Shown: positions 47,401-57,611 of the stretch, piece by piece
Numbering within the stretch: position 1 is the stretch's first letter
Layout: each line of letters opens with the position of its first letter
NCBI GenBank assembly: GCA_027488215.1
Contig: JAIYCB010000011.1
Location: forward strand, 62,001 to 126,000
From: Comamonadaceae bacterium
Lineage (GTDB): Bacteria > Pseudomonadota > Gammaproteobacteria > Burkholderiales > Burkholderiaceae_C
Direction: 5' to 3'
DNA: 64,000 nt
Position numbers and translations under genes: made by a program
The notes under the pieces: generated by a model
Database searches by the model: none
The model's input: only the letters and a program-made list of their open reading frames with translations
Told to the model about the DNA's origin: nothing

Positions 47401-48174
47401 TCAAAGGCCTTGAACCTGATTGGGCCCTTTGACAAGTCCCGTCAGCATACGCCCGGAATCGCGGTTTTTGAGCTTGATTTGCTCACCATAGCGACCGTCT
47501 TGCTGAGCTTCAACACGGGCTGAAATCTGAAAACCCTGGGCTTGGCCGATCGACATCAGCACCATCTGACCCCTTTTGACCAGCAAAGTGGGCCGAATGT
47601 CCTGACTGCGCAGCGGGGTATCGGGGCGCACGTCTCGCACCACCTCACTGTGCAAAATTTGTGAAACCTGCTCCAGCACATTGACGGGCATACCGGGTGT
47701 ATCGACCTCGGCCAGCCGAACATGAGCCTCCGTCAAGATCATGCCGCGCTGCAGGGGAACAGCCGCAACCAGCACCTGTCGCTTTTCAACCTCAGCCGTT
47801 TCGACCTTGGCTTGGGCAGAGCTTGCCGCCACGCGCCCTGTGACTGAGACCCGCACAAACAGCTGCCAGGTCGGTTGGGCGCATCGGACACGGATGGTCT
47901 CGGTGCTGGCAAAGGGCAGATCCATGGCCAGAGGACTGGAGCAAGCCTTGACCTGCAGGCGCGGGTCCAAAGGAGCGAGTACCACCGACTCGGCCGGGAC
48001 CGATTGGGTTTGCACCACCCAATCCACCACCGACTTTTGCAGCGTTGCACTGGGTGAAGCTGGCACCACAGCCCAGGCTGACCCACTGCACAAAAAGAAA
48101 ACCGCCCCGAACCAAAGGCCACGAACCGTGACTGGATCCAGAAGTCGGCACAGCATTTGCATGGAAGGTTTCAT
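47401..48174 (-). CDS. flgA: Flagellar P-ring assembly chaperone FlgA
   Basis: This 257-residue periplasmic protein assists FlgI polymerisation into the P ring. The Sec signal (LWFGAVFFLCSGSAWA) begins after about 20 residues. The SAF domain follows VAAVPLQRGMILTEAHVRLAEVDTPGMPVNV, with later LVKRGQMVLMSIGQAQGFQISARVEAQQDGRYGEQIKLKN, the conserved FlgA C-terminus. ATG 48174 is used in place of an upstream in-frame ATG. It is divergent from the transglycosylase-like gene. Confidence 0.93.
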   Translation of the reverse strand: MKPSMQMLCRLLDPVTVRGLWFGAVFFLCSGSAWAVVPASPSATLQKSVVDWVVQTQSVPAESVVLAPLDPRLQVKACSSPLAMDLPFASTETIRVRCAQPTWQLFVRVSVTGRVAASSAQAKVETAEVEKRQVLVAAVPLQRGMILTEAHVRLAEVDTPGMPVNVLEQVSQILHSEVVRDVRPDTPLRSQDIRPTLLVKRGQMVLMSIGQAQGFQISARVEAQQDGRYGEQIKLKNRDSGRMLTGLVKGPNQVQGL

Positions 48175-48216
48175 AAGTGTGGAAGTTTTGACAGTGATCA
48201 ACATTTCCAACGATTA

Positions 48217-48257: not shown

Positions 48258-49385
48258 ATGAGCAACCTGTTGCCCCCTTTGCCCAGCTTGCCTGCGCTGA
48301 GCCCCCCTGCCCCAACGGGTGGTGGTGCACTGCTGCCCGCGCCGGATCGCTCAGGAGCCTTCGGGCAGGTGCTGGCCGATGTGTCACACCGCGGGGGCAT
48401 GGTCCAAGCGCAGGACGGTGACACCTTGATTGGTCTGGTCAAGGCACATTACCGGCAAAACCATCAACCGATTACCGAGCAGCAGGCCATGCGCCTGGCC
48501 CACCAAGTGGCTGCCCGCAACCAGATTGACAATCCGGACCTGATCCTGACGGGTCAAAAAATCGATTTCTCCAGTTTGCGCATGCCCGCTCTGGCCCGGG
48601 GTGAAGCCCCCGGCCCTCTGGATCTGCATCCGCGCAGCGCGCAATTGGTAGCGAAACTGGCAAACGCCACAGCTTTGACCACCAATGCTTTGGCCAGCCG
48701 CCCGACCGCATGGGCCAGCAGCACTGGCGCCTCCGGGCAACATCCAATCCTGGACAAAACATTGGAGCGCGCCATCCAAAAGGGTTTTGTGCACGCCTCA
48801 GAAGCCCCTGCGGTCAAGGACAAGATCCTGGCCCTGGCCGATCGCTACAACTTCCAACCCGACGACTTTGCCCGCCTGAGTCTGATGGAAAGCGGCGGCA
48901 TGAACCCCCAAGCCAGCAATGGCAACTGCCACGGGATCATTCAGTTTTGCGATGGACCCAACCGGGGCGCCGCCTCTGTGGGCTTCAAAGACAACCCTCG
49001 GGCTATTTTGGGCATGGGTTTGCTGCAGCAATTGGACCTGGTGGACCGTTATTTCTCGCAAGCCGGTCTGCGCGTCAAAGGTCCCCCCATCGGACTGGAT
49101 GATTTGTACCTGACGGTGCTGACCCCTGCTGCAAGGCAAGAAACACGGCCAGACGCGCCACTGCCCATTGCCGGGCCGCAAGCTCGATACCTGCATGTGG
49201 GACAGGACACCCGCGCACCCATCACACGCAACTCCATCCTCGCTGGCTTGCACACCTTGACCAACGCCATATTGCCCCAGACCGTTCGTGCTGCTGCTGC
49301 GCCTGTGATTGGCGCCCTGGGCAAAGGCGGTGTCACCCGCCTGTATGACGAAGTGGCCGGCACACTGCCTGCGACCTTGCGCTGA
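48258..49385 (+). CDS. LysM plus lytic-transglycosylase-like protein, candidate flagellar peptidoglycan hydrolase
   Basis: This 375-residue protein lies between flgA and flgB. Residues about 48-105 are LysM-like (VQAQDGDTLIGLVKAHY...RNQIDNPDLILTGQKIDF). After an Ala-rich linker, residues about 175-340 resemble an SLT transglycosylase: ILALADRYNFQPDDFARLSLMESGGMNPQASNG gives Glu-Ser-Gly with the catalytic Glu, followed by GIIQFC. There is no Sec signal (MSNLLPPLPSLPALSPPAP), so export through the flagellar type III system is plausible, as for FlgJ. FlgJ at 57141 lacks a muramidase domain, making this the likely enzyme that opens the cell wall for the rod. The role is inferred. Confidence 0.72.
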   Translation: MSNLLPPLPSLPALSPPAPTGGGALLPAPDRSGAFGQVLADVSHRGGMVQAQDGDTLIGLVKAHYRQNHQPITEQQAMRLAHQVAARNQIDNPDLILTGQKIDFSSLRMPALARGEAPGPLDLHPRSAQLVAKLANATALTTNALASRPTAWASSTGASGQHPILDKTLERAIQKGFVHASEAPAVKDKILALADRYNFQPDDFARLSLMESGGMNPQASNGNCHGIIQFCDGPNRGAASVGFKDNPRAILGMGLLQQLDLVDRYFSQAGLRVKGPPIGLDDLYLTVLTPAARQETRPDAPLPIAGPQARYLHVGQDTRAPITRNSILAGLHTLTNAILPQTVRAAAAPVIGALGKGGVTRLYDEVAGTLPATLR

Positions 49386-49485: not shown

Positions 49486-49502
49486 TTGGCACGGCTTTTG
49501 CA
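49486..49502 (+). promoter_or_regulatory. Sigma-54 promoter of the flgB operon
   Basis: TTGGCACGGCTTTTGCA matches the consensus YTGGCACGRNNNTTGCW at every defined position. The -24 GG is at 49488-49489 and the -12 GC at 49500-49501, so the start of transcription should be near 49513, leaving an 80-base leader before flgB. Confidence 0.92.
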
Positions 49503-49593: not shown

Positions 49594-49983
49594 ATGAATT
49601 TGTTGAACCAAGCACTCGGTGTGCACGAACAAGCTTTGCAAGTCAAAAGCCGCCGCCTTGAAGTGTTGGCACAAAACATCGCCAACGCTGATACGCCCAA
49701 CTACAAAGCGCGGGACATCGACTTCAAGACCGTGATGAAAGAGACCCAATTCAAGGACAACGCCATGCAGGCTACGAACCATGGCCACTTTGCCGAGGGC
49801 CAGGGGCTCGATGCCGATGGCATGCGTTACCGCGTCCCTTTCAACACCGCCTTTGACGGCAACACCGTTGAAATGAGTGTGGAACAAGCCCAGTACGGTA
49901 AAGCCGCCGCGGACTACCAGGCCACGCTGAACTTTCTGGAAAGCCGCGTGAGCAGCGTGCGCAAAGCGCTCCGAGGAGATTGA
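49594..49983 (+). CDS. flgB: Flagellar basal-body rod protein FlgB
   Basis: This 129-residue proximal-rod protein is exported by the flagellar type III system. NLLNQALGVHEQALQVKSRRLEVLAQNIANADTPNYKARDIDFKTVM contains the rod-family ANxxTPxYK signature, and the C-terminus VEMSVEQAQYGKAAADYQATLNFL is characteristic. It is the first gene behind the sigma-54 promoter. Confidence 0.96.
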   Translation: MNLLNQALGVHEQALQVKSRRLEVLAQNIANADTPNYKARDIDFKTVMKETQFKDNAMQATNHGHFAEGQGLDADGMRYRVPFNTAFDGNTVEMSVEQAQYGKAAADYQATLNFLESRVSSVRKALRGD

Positions 49984-51170: not shown

Positions 51171-53588
51171 ATGTCGTTCTATACCTCGCTCACCGGACTG
51201 AACTCGGCCACGGCCCAGTTGGCCGTCACCTCCAACAACATCGCCAACGTGGGCACCTCGGGCTTCAAGCGCTCGAGGGCCGACTTTGGCGATATTTTCT
51301 CAACCTCTCCGCTGCAAAAATCTTCCAGCAACATTGGCCAGGGCGTTTCGCTCAAGCAAGTGAGCCAGGAATTCAGCCAGGGCAACATCTCCACCTCGGG
51401 CAACTCGCTGGACCTGGCCATCACGGGTGACGGCTTTTTCCCGCTCAAAACGCCTGACGGCCTGCAGGACATTTACACCCGCAACGGCTCCTTCACCCTG
51501 AACGACCAGAACAACGTGGTCAACTCCACCGGACAACGCCTGATGGCCGCATCGGTCGACTCGTCCGGCAAGGCCGATTTGACCGACCTCAACGCCCTGA
51601 CCATACCACCCAAAACATCCGGCGAAGCGGTCGAAACCACCCAGATCCAGCTGGGCCTGAACCTGCCAGCCGACTCGGCCGTGATCACGGCCGACTTTGA
51701 CCGCAGCAACCCCAGCACCTACAACAAAAGCACCGCCTTGACGGTGTACGACAGCGGCGGTAACGGTTACTTGGCCACGGTGTACTACGCCAAAACCCAA
51801 AACGCCAGCCAGGACCAAACGCCGCCCAGCTCCAAGTGGCAGACCTACTTCTTTGTGGGTGACACCCAGGTCAAACCGGCTCTCCAGCAAGCCACCGACA
51901 AGGTGGGTGGTGCCTTGTTTGTCAACAAATATGGCGATGTGCTGCCCAAGAGCGATCCCCGCGTGGTCCCCAGCTCCGGCACCACCGAGATGTTCTCGCT
52001 GGACCAACTCACGGATGTTCGCCGATCCTCCCCGGCCTCCGCCATCGGCGCTGCACTGAACACCACAACCACTTTTGTCAACGGCATTTTGGCCAGCAGC
52101 ATCACTCCGGCATCCGGGACTACACCGGCAACGCCCGTACCGCTTGCCGTCGGAACGGTATTGAATTTCAACATCAAAGTGGATGGTGCTCCAGCCACCG
52201 CGCAAGCCATCACTTACACCACCAAAGCCGGCGACCAAGATCCCGAAGTGTTGGCCCGCAACGTGGAAATCGCCATCAACAACGTTCTCGGCTCTCTGGC
52301 CGACACCCCAGCAACGTCAGGGTCGGCACCCGGCGTGACACCCGTCGTCGCAGCCGTGCCAGCCATCAAAAATGCCCGCTTCGGCATCACCGTCGCTTTT
52401 GACCCCGATACCGCCAGGTTCTCCATCGCCTCGGGCACCACAGGCGACAGTTCCAGCATTGAGGTGGCCACCACCGATGCCAACGCCATCCGGTTTATGG
52501 GATTGAGTGGAACGGGCCTCAAGGTCGATGCATCGGCCAATGAAGCATTGCGAGGCAAGATCAGCGATCCCGCTGTGCTGCGCGGCGAGACCATGACCAT
52601 CAACACCACCAAGAGCATCAGCACCTCATCGGCCAACAAGGACTTTTTTGTTTCGGTCGATGGCTTTGCTTTCAAAGTGGAACTGCCCTTCCCCACCACC
52701 TACACCAACATTGACAGCTTTGCCAAGGCACTGCAAGACAGCATCAACGCCAAAACAGACCCCGCCACTGGCCGCAAAGTCTCTGGTGTTACGGTTAGTT
52801 TCGACCCCAAGGCCAAACAGTTTGTCTTCACCACCGGCACCGCCGGTGAGAACTCTGCCATCCAAGTCACTGGCTCTGCCGACTGGGGATTGGCCAACAC
52901 CGAAATGCAATTTGGCTCTACCAGCGAGTGGAAAAAACTGACCCAGTTCACCGAAAACGGCGCATTGCAGTTTGTCAAAAATGGCGTTCAAACCGAAGAT
53001 GCTTCTGGTCTCTCCACCCAAACTGAATGGTGGCCTGTTTATCTGGACCGCGGCGAGTTGAGTTTCGATCTGACCGGCAAACCCATCTCGCCCCTGACCG
53101 GCATGCCCTTCGAAACCGCTTTCTTGGCTGGTGGTAAGGGTGCCCTGACCATGTCCATCGACTTCACCAAGTCCACCCAATACTCCAGCGCATTTGCCGT
53201 GTTGTCGCAGTCACAAGACGGTGCTCCTGAGGGCGAGTTGATGGGTCTGAACATCGGTGTCGACGGCTTGGTCAACGCCACCTACTCCAACGGCTCCCAG
53301 GTTTCATTGGGCAAGATCGTGCTGGCCAACTTCTCCAGTCCTTCCGGCCTGCGCCAGGTGGGTGATGCCAGCTACTTGGCCTCTGCCACATCGGGAGTGG
53401 CCAAAATCGGTGAAGCCGGTTCTGCCGGCTTCGGTTCAATCCGCGCCGGTGCCACCGAACGCGCCAACGTGGACTTGACCCAAGAACTGGTGGACCTGAT
53501 CACCGCACAGCGAAACTTCCAGGCCAACGCCAAGGCCATTGAAACCAGCTCCACCATGACCAGCGCCATCATCAACATCCGTTCTTGA
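51171..53588 (+). CDS. flgE: Flagellar hook protein FlgE, enlarged with duplicated module
   Basis: This 805-residue hook subunit is about twice the usual 400. The conserved ends are intact: TGLNSATAQLAVTSNNIANVGTSGFKRSRADFGDIF at the N-terminus and DLTQELVDLITAQRNFQANAKAIETSSTMTSAIINIRS at the C-terminus. The added length lies in the surface-exposed middle, where two similar modules occur at about residues 333-446 (VDGAPATAQAITYTT...ITVAFDPDTARFSIASGTTGDSSSIEV) and 492-585 (VDGFAFKVEL...VTVSFDPKAKQFVFTTGTAGENSAIQV). They resemble the flagellin_IN type of repeat. CAGGAG precedes the ATG. Confidence 0.96.
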   Translation: MSFYTSLTGLNSATAQLAVTSNNIANVGTSGFKRSRADFGDIFSTSPLQKSSSNIGQGVSLKQVSQEFSQGNISTSGNSLDLAITGDGFFPLKTPDGLQDIYTRNGSFTLNDQNNVVNSTGQRLMAASVDSSGKADLTDLNALTIPPKTSGEAVETTQIQLGLNLPADSAVITADFDRSNPSTYNKSTALTVYDSGGNGYLATVYYAKTQNASQDQTPPSSKWQTYFFVGDTQVKPALQQATDKVGGALFVNKYGDVLPKSDPRVVPSSGTTEMFSLDQLTDVRRSSPASAIGAALNTTTTFVNGILASSITPASGTTPATPVPLAVGTVLNFNIKVDGAPATAQAITYTTKAGDQDPEVLARNVEIAINNVLGSLADTPATSGSAPGVTPVVAAVPAIKNARFGITVAFDPDTARFSIASGTTGDSSSIEVATTDANAIRFMGLSGTGLKVDASANEALRGKISDPAVLRGETMTINTTKSISTSSANKDFFVSVDGFAFKVELPFPTTYTNIDSFAKALQDSINAKTDPATGRKVSGVTVSFDPKAKQFVFTTGTAGENSAIQVTGSADWGLANTEMQFGSTSEWKKLTQFTENGALQFVKNGVQTEDASGLSTQTEWWPVYLDRGELSFDLTGKPISPLTGMPFETAFLAGGKGALTMSIDFTKSTQYSSAFAVLSQSQDGAPEGELMGLNIGVDGLVNATYSNGSQVSLGKIVLANFSSPSGLRQVGDASYLASATSGVAKIGEAGSAGFGSIRAGATERANVDLTQELVDLITAQRNFQANAKAIETSSTMTSAIINIRS

Positions 53589-57140: not shown

Positions 57141-57611
57141 ATGAGCGACATCGCCCACACCTCTTCCAGCTCTTATCTGGACTTCAACGCGCTGACGCAG
57201 TTGAAGGGCGATGCCGCACGCGACCCGAGCAAAGCCGTACGCAAAACCGCCGAACAATTTGAGGCTTACTTCATCCAGCAAATGATGAAGTCCATGCGCG
57301 ACACGGTTGAAAAAAGCGACCTCGTCGAGGGCGGGAACATGGAGATGTACCAAGACCTGATGGACAAGGAAGTGTCATTGAGCATGGCCAAGCGCGGTGG
57401 TCTGGGCTTGGCCGACATGATGGAACGCCAGATGAACAAGGCCCAGGCCATGAGCACGCAAGACGCGCTGCGCCAGCGCCAACCCATGAGCCTTGACGCA
57501 CCCGCCCTGCCGCTGAATCCGGTTCGCGAACCCATGGTCATCAAGCCAGCAGCGGTTGAGGCTTATCGTCTGGAGCGCACCAGTGGCTTCAAGCTCGGAG
57601 ATAAGCCATGA
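57141..57611 (+). CDS. flgJ: Rod-capping protein FlgJ, single-domain form without muramidase
   Basis: This 156-residue protein contains only the N-terminal rod-binding domain: KTAEQFEAYFIQQMMKSMRDTVEKSDLVEGGNMEMYQDLMDKEVSLSMAKRGGLGLADMMERQM. Enterobacterial FlgJ is about 310 residues with a C-terminal glucosaminidase-type hydrolase, which is absent here. The short form needs a hydrolase in trans, for which the gene at 48258 is a candidate. Its stop overlaps the flgK start (ATGA). Confidence 0.95.
   Translation: MSDIAHTSSSSYLDFNALTQLKGDAARDPSKAVRKTAEQFEAYFIQQMMKSMRDTVEKSDLVEGGNMEMYQDLMDKEVSLSMAKRGGLGLADMMERQMNKAQAMSTQDALRQRQPMSLDAPALPLNPVREPMVIKPAAVEAYRLERTSGFKLGDKP

Follow-up and report, generated by a model that had tools for sequence, protein, structure and literature searches.

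A flagellar gene cluster of a freshwater Comamonadaceae bacterium, lying in the 64,000-nucleotide stretch analysed here (the window; contig JAIYCB010000011.1 of assembly GCA_027488215.1), carries between flgA and flgB a gene whose product, here termed X, is probably a flagellum-exported, peptidoglycan-cutting partner of a FlgJ that possesses the rod-binding domain only. Taken part by part, X is almost certainly an enzyme that cuts peptidoglycan; it is very probably dedicated to the flagellum, and its N-terminus suggests that it is likely to be exported through the flagellar type III system. At the level of sequence the argument is carried by a lytic transglycosylase (LT) domain with its fold model, a conserved gene order, the pairing with one-domain FlgJ, the replacement of X in relatives by a form that joins a GH73 domain to the same N-terminal module, and the absence of X from near-complete genomes of the genus that have no FlgJ; the export route, enzyme activity, binding partner and essentiality of X are what we infer from these data. 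Most likely X works as a separately travelling counterpart of the C-terminal half in two-domain FlgJ, and as an equivalent of the SltF enzyme of Rhodobacter minus its Sec signal. An earlier note on this DNA, made from its letters alone, had proposed such a hydrolase; its observations are confirmed and its interpretation is supported. New with respect to that note are an export-type motif, a sigma-54-type promoter site and relatives of X with a GH73 or SGNH domain, all described below.

48258..49385, plus strand: X, open reading frame (ORF) between flgA and flgB for a LysM-like and LT protein of 375 amino acids
48360..48374, plus strand: F35-G-Q-V-L39, FxxxPhi match, candidate motif for recognition at the FlhB gate as in early flagellar type III substrates (motif definition in PMC10965912 and PMC8983047)
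48399..48578, plus strand: LysM-like module, residues about 48-107 (TIGR02899, SafA; Pfam LysM over cut-off in one relative)
48738..49280, plus strand: predicted LT domain of lysozyme fold, residues 161-341 (phrog_4928, PDB 9udh, fold model)
48888..48890, plus strand: Glu211, predicted catalytic acid, in LMESGGMNPQ (invariant in 22 homologues and the aligned phage relatives)
48927..48950, plus strand: Cys224 and Cys231 (invariant in 22 homologues)
57141..57611, plus strand: one-domain FlgJ of 156 amino acids, rod-binding domain only (PF10135, E 4.6e-16)

The frame of X begins at the first start after the preceding stop codon, and X is taken to be a real gene because the ratio of nonsynonymous to synonymous substitution is low in both of its parts (median dN/dS 0.089 for LT and 0.139 for LysM over 10 pairs). 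The SLT-like segment with Glu-Ser-Gly that had been pointed out earlier belongs to the LT domain, which matches phrog_4928 at 6.9e-9 and PDB 9udh at 1.9e-4, and whose structure model has a lysozyme-like fold with a predicted catalytic Glu and a GxxQ motif, as in GH23-like LTs in the wide sense; the similarity to lysozyme-fold enzymes on which the earlier proposal depended is thus present. A first structure prediction, of the whole of X with 15 close sequences, gave a predicted local distance difference test score (pLDDT) of 51.7 and was set aside. X lies outside PF01464 (SLT/GH23) as tested: a Pfam search returned no family at E<=10, hence the cut-off of PF01464 was not reached. A disulfide between Cys224 and Cys231 is possible. 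For the LysM-like segment, also claimed earlier, the matches are mixed. A relative with a homologous module, L145, passes the Pfam LysM cut-off of 20.9 bits with 25.3 bits, and the signal in X itself is weak (no Pfam match; TIGR02899 at 0.017; SafA 7r1l at 0.0037 with a 15-row family profile). Four further modules (L148, L146, L159 and L160) score 16.6-18.8 bits, below the cut-off, and that of L143 has no LysM match at 0.01.

The place assigned to X, at the head of the plus-strand flagellar cluster, holds as well: flgB through flgL, in the order flgBCDEFGHIJKL, match flagellar Pfam families, and flagellins (one of them tested), FliF, FliG and the export ATPase FliI follow further along the contig.

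47401..48210, minus strand: flgA, divergent neighbour of X (ChapFlgA, E 4e-26; present in 30 of 36 X loci)
49594..49983, plus strand: flgB, neighbour downstream of X (flagellar Pfam match)

FlgJ of the window, described earlier as lacking the C-terminal hydrolase, indeed has no GH73 domain behind its rod-binding domain. The host genome (3.07 Mb, 90.46% complete) contains one PF10135 (Rod-binding) match and no PF01832 (GH73) match, so that within this completeness no second, two-domain FlgJ was found. Seven PF01464 proteins besides X are present. None is inside the part of the flagellar cluster on contig C39, which answers in that scope the question of an SltF orthologue elsewhere, the existence of the seven leaving the answer partial. 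Six of them have a hydrophobic stretch of 1.5-2.9 near the N-terminus on the scale used below for Sec signals, and the seventh (L031) reaches 1.19 there and has, by eye, a hydrophobic stretch further in.

Profiles of the X family matched 9 of 250 genomes of the bacterial family (eight including the LT domain; the ninth, G189, has a related LysM protein), 15 of 399 in the order (eight with the LT domain, and seven, unread, with the N-terminal part only) and 33 of 369 in the class, where the only full-length match is the window's own genome and the rest of those listed, except G873 (LT part), are short matches of 18-25 bits to LysM or linker, likewise unread. Twenty-three loci, together with seven from the family scan and six from the order scan, make up 36 X loci. 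The next gene is flgB in every one of them, and divergent flgA is found in all but the six in which the contig ends there. All 22 FlgJs that can be read to their stop have about 151-200 residues, and those of G124, G599, G517, G545 and G393, read separately, are one-domain. Co-occurrence with short flgJ, proposed as a check, therefore holds beyond the genus, in at least three families of the order (f1, f13 and f18), and X is a predicted LT whose gene belongs with a flagellar cluster that encodes a one-domain FlgJ, as in the SltF/BB0259 kind. Genome G161 (loci L048 and L105) has both arrangements, an X cluster with one-domain FlgJ and a second cluster with two-domain FlgJ (PF10135 plus PF01832).

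FlgJ occurs in 188 of the 250 family genomes, and the 29 best-scoring other FlgJ loci among them served for comparison. Four (in G161, G087, G092 and G242) have a FlgI 70-78% identical to that of the window, and all four have one-domain FlgJ; the remaining 25 have FlgI at 42-47%, with FlgJ of 283-327 residues in 19 and no length in 6. Because FlgI of the X loci is 69-94% identical in 25 of the 26 with a match (L018, at 31% and on a short contig, is a stray), X marks one flagellar-cluster lineage across at least three families. G242 has one-domain FlgJ in an X-type cluster without X, on a short contig of a genome 76% complete. Short FlgJ frames without X at contig ends were found in the family scan in G027, G148 and G186; by eye, G027 and G186 contain FlgJ-type hydrolase sequence, while FlgJ of G148 was not itself read. 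The 225-residue FlgJ frame of G003, in which GH73 is not readable, perhaps contains a frame break.

Within the genus, all 90 genomes were scanned for the X family, the Rod-binding domain and GH73. A Rod-binding match is present in 62, of which 46 have X, 9 the GH73 form and 7 neither; among the 28 without such a match, 9 have X and 19 neither, the former nine being only 62-90% complete. Restricting the count to the 44 genomes at least 95% complete leaves 36 with FlgJ (26 X, 7 GH73 form, 3 neither) and 8 without FlgJ, which have neither X nor the GH73 form (G189 among them has a broken third form). The two forms never occur together in one genome of the genus. The tally stands as counts, since Fisher values for it ignore relatedness; G1063, G1075 and G1087 (all below 95% complete) were included among the 46 by a weaker match in a 125-residue frame, and FlgJ frames in the 46 have 120-212 residues, except for G1054 (288, unread). 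Weaker Rod-binding matches in unread frames of 124-125 residues were seen in G1018, G1039, G1051, G1053, G1063, G1075 and G1087, four of which also have a usual FlgJ. Among genomes scored as neither, G1003 and G1007 have Rod-binding and GH73 within one 298-residue frame (G1003 was also read and profiled), and G1066 has part of a GH73 domain at the edge of a contig.

The nine FlgJ genomes with the GH73 form encode a protein in which the N-terminus and LysM module of X are fused to a FlgJ-type GH73 domain; in L148 the latter matches PF01832 at 3.5e-35, and similarity to X is 36% over 99 amino acids (E 3e-12). All nine genes were read, all are among the PF01832 matches of the genus scan, and all sit away from the flg cluster. 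The cluster was examined in six of the nine genomes (G1005, G1021, G1012, G1057, G1013 and G1024), and in these flgA adjoins flgB without X and FlgJ is one-domain. A tree built on six flagellar proteins, with 29 clusters that include those of six of the nine GH73-form genomes, nests the GH73 clade, G1036 among it, in X-carrying lineages (support 0.998). This points to one exchange, with G1036 a later loss or a genome in which the gene was not found. All nine loci (L143, L146, L148, L150, L152, L154, L155, L157 and L158) combine LysM and GH73 with no Sec signal, beside GDSL-lipase and acyltransferase genes of the O-acetylation type (domains profiled in L148); that acetylated peptidoglycan was the reason for the exchange of LT for glucosaminidase is speculation. 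In a third form, found in four genomes (with Pfam matches in three), the same kind of N-terminus and LysM is joined to an SGNH/GDSL hydrolase; its loci are L145 (7062-8132), L159, L160 and L049, beside MBOAT, DHHW and SGNH genes (neighbours profiled in L145), and in L049, from the FlgJ-less G189, the frame is broken.

The lack of a Sec signal claimed for X was borne out by the hydrophobicity of the best 12-residue stretch within residues 1-40, maximised over all possible starts. It is 0.31-1.86 in 29 X homologues, compared with 2.10-3.18 in 21 FlgI, 1.94-2.79 in 22 FlgH and 1.36-3.16 in 29 FlgA, the last overlapping the range of X. A Sec-like segment is likewise missing from 12 relatives of the GH73 and SGNH forms, and neither a Sec signal nor a lipobox as in SltF and BB0259 was found in X. 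The FxxxPhi gate-recognition motif has been defined in substrates of the flagellar export gate, and Salmonella FlgD has 2SIAV5 and 36FLTLL40 (PMC10965912 and PMC8983047). X has an apolar N-terminus (MSNLLPPL...) followed by F35GQVL39, and thus agrees in sequence with a rod/hook substrate: FxxxPhi at least about 30 residues in, an apolar N-terminus and no Sec signal. Counted from the called starts, 30 of 34 proteins belonging to the three enzyme forms, with close relatives and two partial proteins included, have the motif Phe at residue 29-46. In 14 of 18 representatives the motif stands 12-40 residues ahead of the LysM GDTL, where shuffles give 2.99 +- 1.49 (maximum 9 in 5000); 11 of 84 further ORFs from this region have it at residue 29-46. 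Among flagellar proteins of the window, FlgB, FlgC, FlgD, FlgE, FlgG and FlgJ carry it at residues 38-49, FlgF at 52 only, and FlgK, FlgL and FlgM not at all. For the flagellar type III export proposed earlier, the motif is support and not proof.

Expression of X with the early basal-body genes is suggested by promoter-like sites.

48146..48161, plus strand: sigma-54-type promoter site CGGCACAGCATTTGCA, directed to X (like site in 25 of 30 X loci)
49487..49502, plus strand: exact sigma-54-type site TGGCACGGCTTTTGCA, upstream of flgB (pattern match)

The searches used sigma-54 and sigma-28 consensus patterns. The site CGGCACAGCATTTGC lies 112 bases upstream of X and is identical in 18 loci. For the like sites, found in 25 loci (24 upstream and one at +2 of the called start), mononucleotide shuffles of related loci give an expectation of 0.03. 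Taken by itself, the sigma-54 pattern is no more frequent in the window than by chance (10 observed, 7.59 by chance), and only conservation of the site counts as evidence. The site at +2 belongs to G545, and hints at a later true start there. A sigma-28 site upstream of X was looked for and not found. The sites are compatible with sigma-54 control of X and flgB.

Among characterized enzymes the nearest counterparts include separate flagellar LTs. SltF of Rhodobacter (Cereibacter) sphaeroides resembles X in being a separate LT from a flagellar cluster and the partner of a one-domain FlgJ; it has a Sec signal, is exported by the SecA pathway and is encoded in the flgG operon, and the passages of PMC7277832 that describe it mention no LysM. 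X differs in lacking a Sec signal and any Pfam SLT match, in its LysM-like module and in the position of its gene before flgB. BB0259 (LTase-Bb) of Borrelia burgdorferi is also a flagellar LT alongside one-domain FlgJ and is needed for flagella but, unlike X, has 717 residues, a signal sequence and lipobox needed for function, and a Pfam SLT domain (PMC8517470). The Sec signal that the earlier note ascribed to SltF is thus described for both enzymes in these sources. In the two-domain FlgJ of the Salmonella type a peptidoglycan-cutting domain is delivered by the flagellar export apparatus, as proposed for X (PMC8781033 and PMC10936197); there the GH73 domain is in one polypeptide with the cap, whereas here cap and enzyme are separate proteins, and relatives with the GH73 form carry a domain of FlgJ type on an X-type N-terminal module.

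The phage LT 9udh and phage proteins P0002 and P0003 share with X the fold and a core of Glu, GxIQF, QL, Y, LxxxY and LxP, P0002 also retaining both Cys, at 18-34% identity and with no LysM or export-type N-terminus in the aligned proteins. Searches of viral contigs, one with the X family and one with the Microcoleus phage domain, turned up no relative, and neither did a search of plasmids. Outside the order, G873:C15 (L124) and G873:C34 matched in the LT part alone, at E 9e-7 and 5e-5. CwlQ of Bacillus subtilis is reportedly, by the title of a paper, needed for swarming and not for flagellar assembly. It is an LT and muramidase of the SLT family under sigma-D (PMC10653849).

In the process that we favour, X would be expressed alongside early basal-body genes from its own sigma-54-type promoter and would dock at FlhB via F35-GQV-L39, the small apolar N-terminus serving as gate-opening signal. 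It would cross the export channel unfolded and refold in the periplasm, where the LysM-like module would keep it on the wall and Glu211 would open glycan strands where the rod must pass. A wider reading, to which we give somewhat less than even weight, is that apolar N-terminus, FxxxPhi and LysM-like anchor form a reusable module that may take exchangeable enzymes (LT, GH73 glucosaminidase, SGNH hydrolase) through the flagellar channel. If so, the growing rod would bring its own wall cutter, a free-standing hydrolase uncoupled from the FlgJ cap, whose catalytic half is swapped in evolution. It is still an open question how the wall is opened only at the site of flagellum growth: a cutter exported by Sec is free throughout the periplasm, and channel delivery would restrict it in both space and time. 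With LT naturally exchanged for GH73 on a shared N-terminal module, the role of the module and of the type of cut could readily be tested. A literature search limited to titles and abstract openings, with most subscription journals outside it, returned no paper describing a LysM-bearing LT encoded between flgA and flgB, or the flagellar export of an LT that is a free-standing protein.

Several observations weigh against X as a flagellum-exported partner of FlgJ. Much of its co-occurrence with one-domain FlgJ reflects shared descent, because both travel in one cluster lineage. One-domain FlgJ also occurs without X in other families of the order, as in f43 (L111, L112, L113, L119 and L120, with FlgI about 46% like that of the window), so that X is not the sole solution and another hydrolase is to be expected there. 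G1036, which is 100% complete, has one-domain FlgJ with no X, no GH73 form and no GH73 (L161, G1036:C3:268000-287000), and is a true exception to the X-or-GH73-form pattern. The GH73 form adjoins acyltransferase and GDSL genes outside the flg cluster. PF01832 matched in 27 of the 90 genomes, some being other proteins in short frames (163-226 residues, unread); these occur in four X genomes (G087, G1043, G1056 and G1064), in four without FlgJ (G1002, G1016, G1022 and G189) and in G1060, weaker matches occur too, and a simple rule of one GH73 or one X is weakened by them. G599, G393 and G488 lack FxxxPhi at their called starts, and G545 has it within range only if the later start is used. Sec-type FlgA (residue 34) and FlgH (residue 37) match by chance, and FxxxPhi alone is therefore not specific.

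The last two points speak for the unlikely alternative that X is a flagellar hydrolase reaching the periplasm by a non-classical or unrecognised signal, FxxxPhi then binding FlgJ or a rod protein, as does the use of Sec by SltF and BB0259, separate enzymes of this sort. Against it stand the lack of a Sec-like segment at any start in the 29 homologues and 12 relatives, and the retention of the motif by three enzyme types at the published N-terminal distance. X might instead be an accessory wall enzyme regulated with the flagellum (for P-ring, stator or turnover) while another of the seven SLT enzymes serves the rod, which we hold to be quite unlikely: the number of PF01464 proteins, the case of G1036 and the adjacency of X to flgA, the P-ring chaperone gene, speak for it, but none of the seven is in the cluster part on C39, and FlgJ genomes of the genus carry X or the GH73 form, never both. 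The possibility that the link to one-domain FlgJ is nothing more than common inheritance of one flagellar cluster fits the FlgI identities (69-94% at X loci save the stray, 42-47% at 25 others); it is already weakened and appears improbable, since within the genus a GH73 form sharing its N-terminal module has taken over from X, with FlgJ remaining one-domain, and both forms are missing from the eight near-complete FlgJ-less genomes. Very improbable is a flagellar-channel cargo with another target, such as a lysin for release into the medium; the LT domain does have its closest matches among phage enzymes, but the conserved position heading the rod genes and the link to one-domain FlgJ disagree with it, and the LysM module would tether X to the wall of its own cell.

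The ten loci 81-87% identical to X are labelled Limnohabitans (7), uncultured Burkholderiales (2) and Comamonadaceae (1), by which the host is Limnohabitans or a very close relative. X is also encoded in the freshwater Limnohabitans strain WS1 (L011). A Limnohabitans-type flagellar cluster is also borne by contig L014, from a metagenome-assembled genome labelled Akkermansia muciniphila, and this label is probably wrong. FlgE of the window (51171-53588) has 805 residues, and its middle region is unmatched in most relatives outside the genus; this hook protein therefore has a large variable insert.
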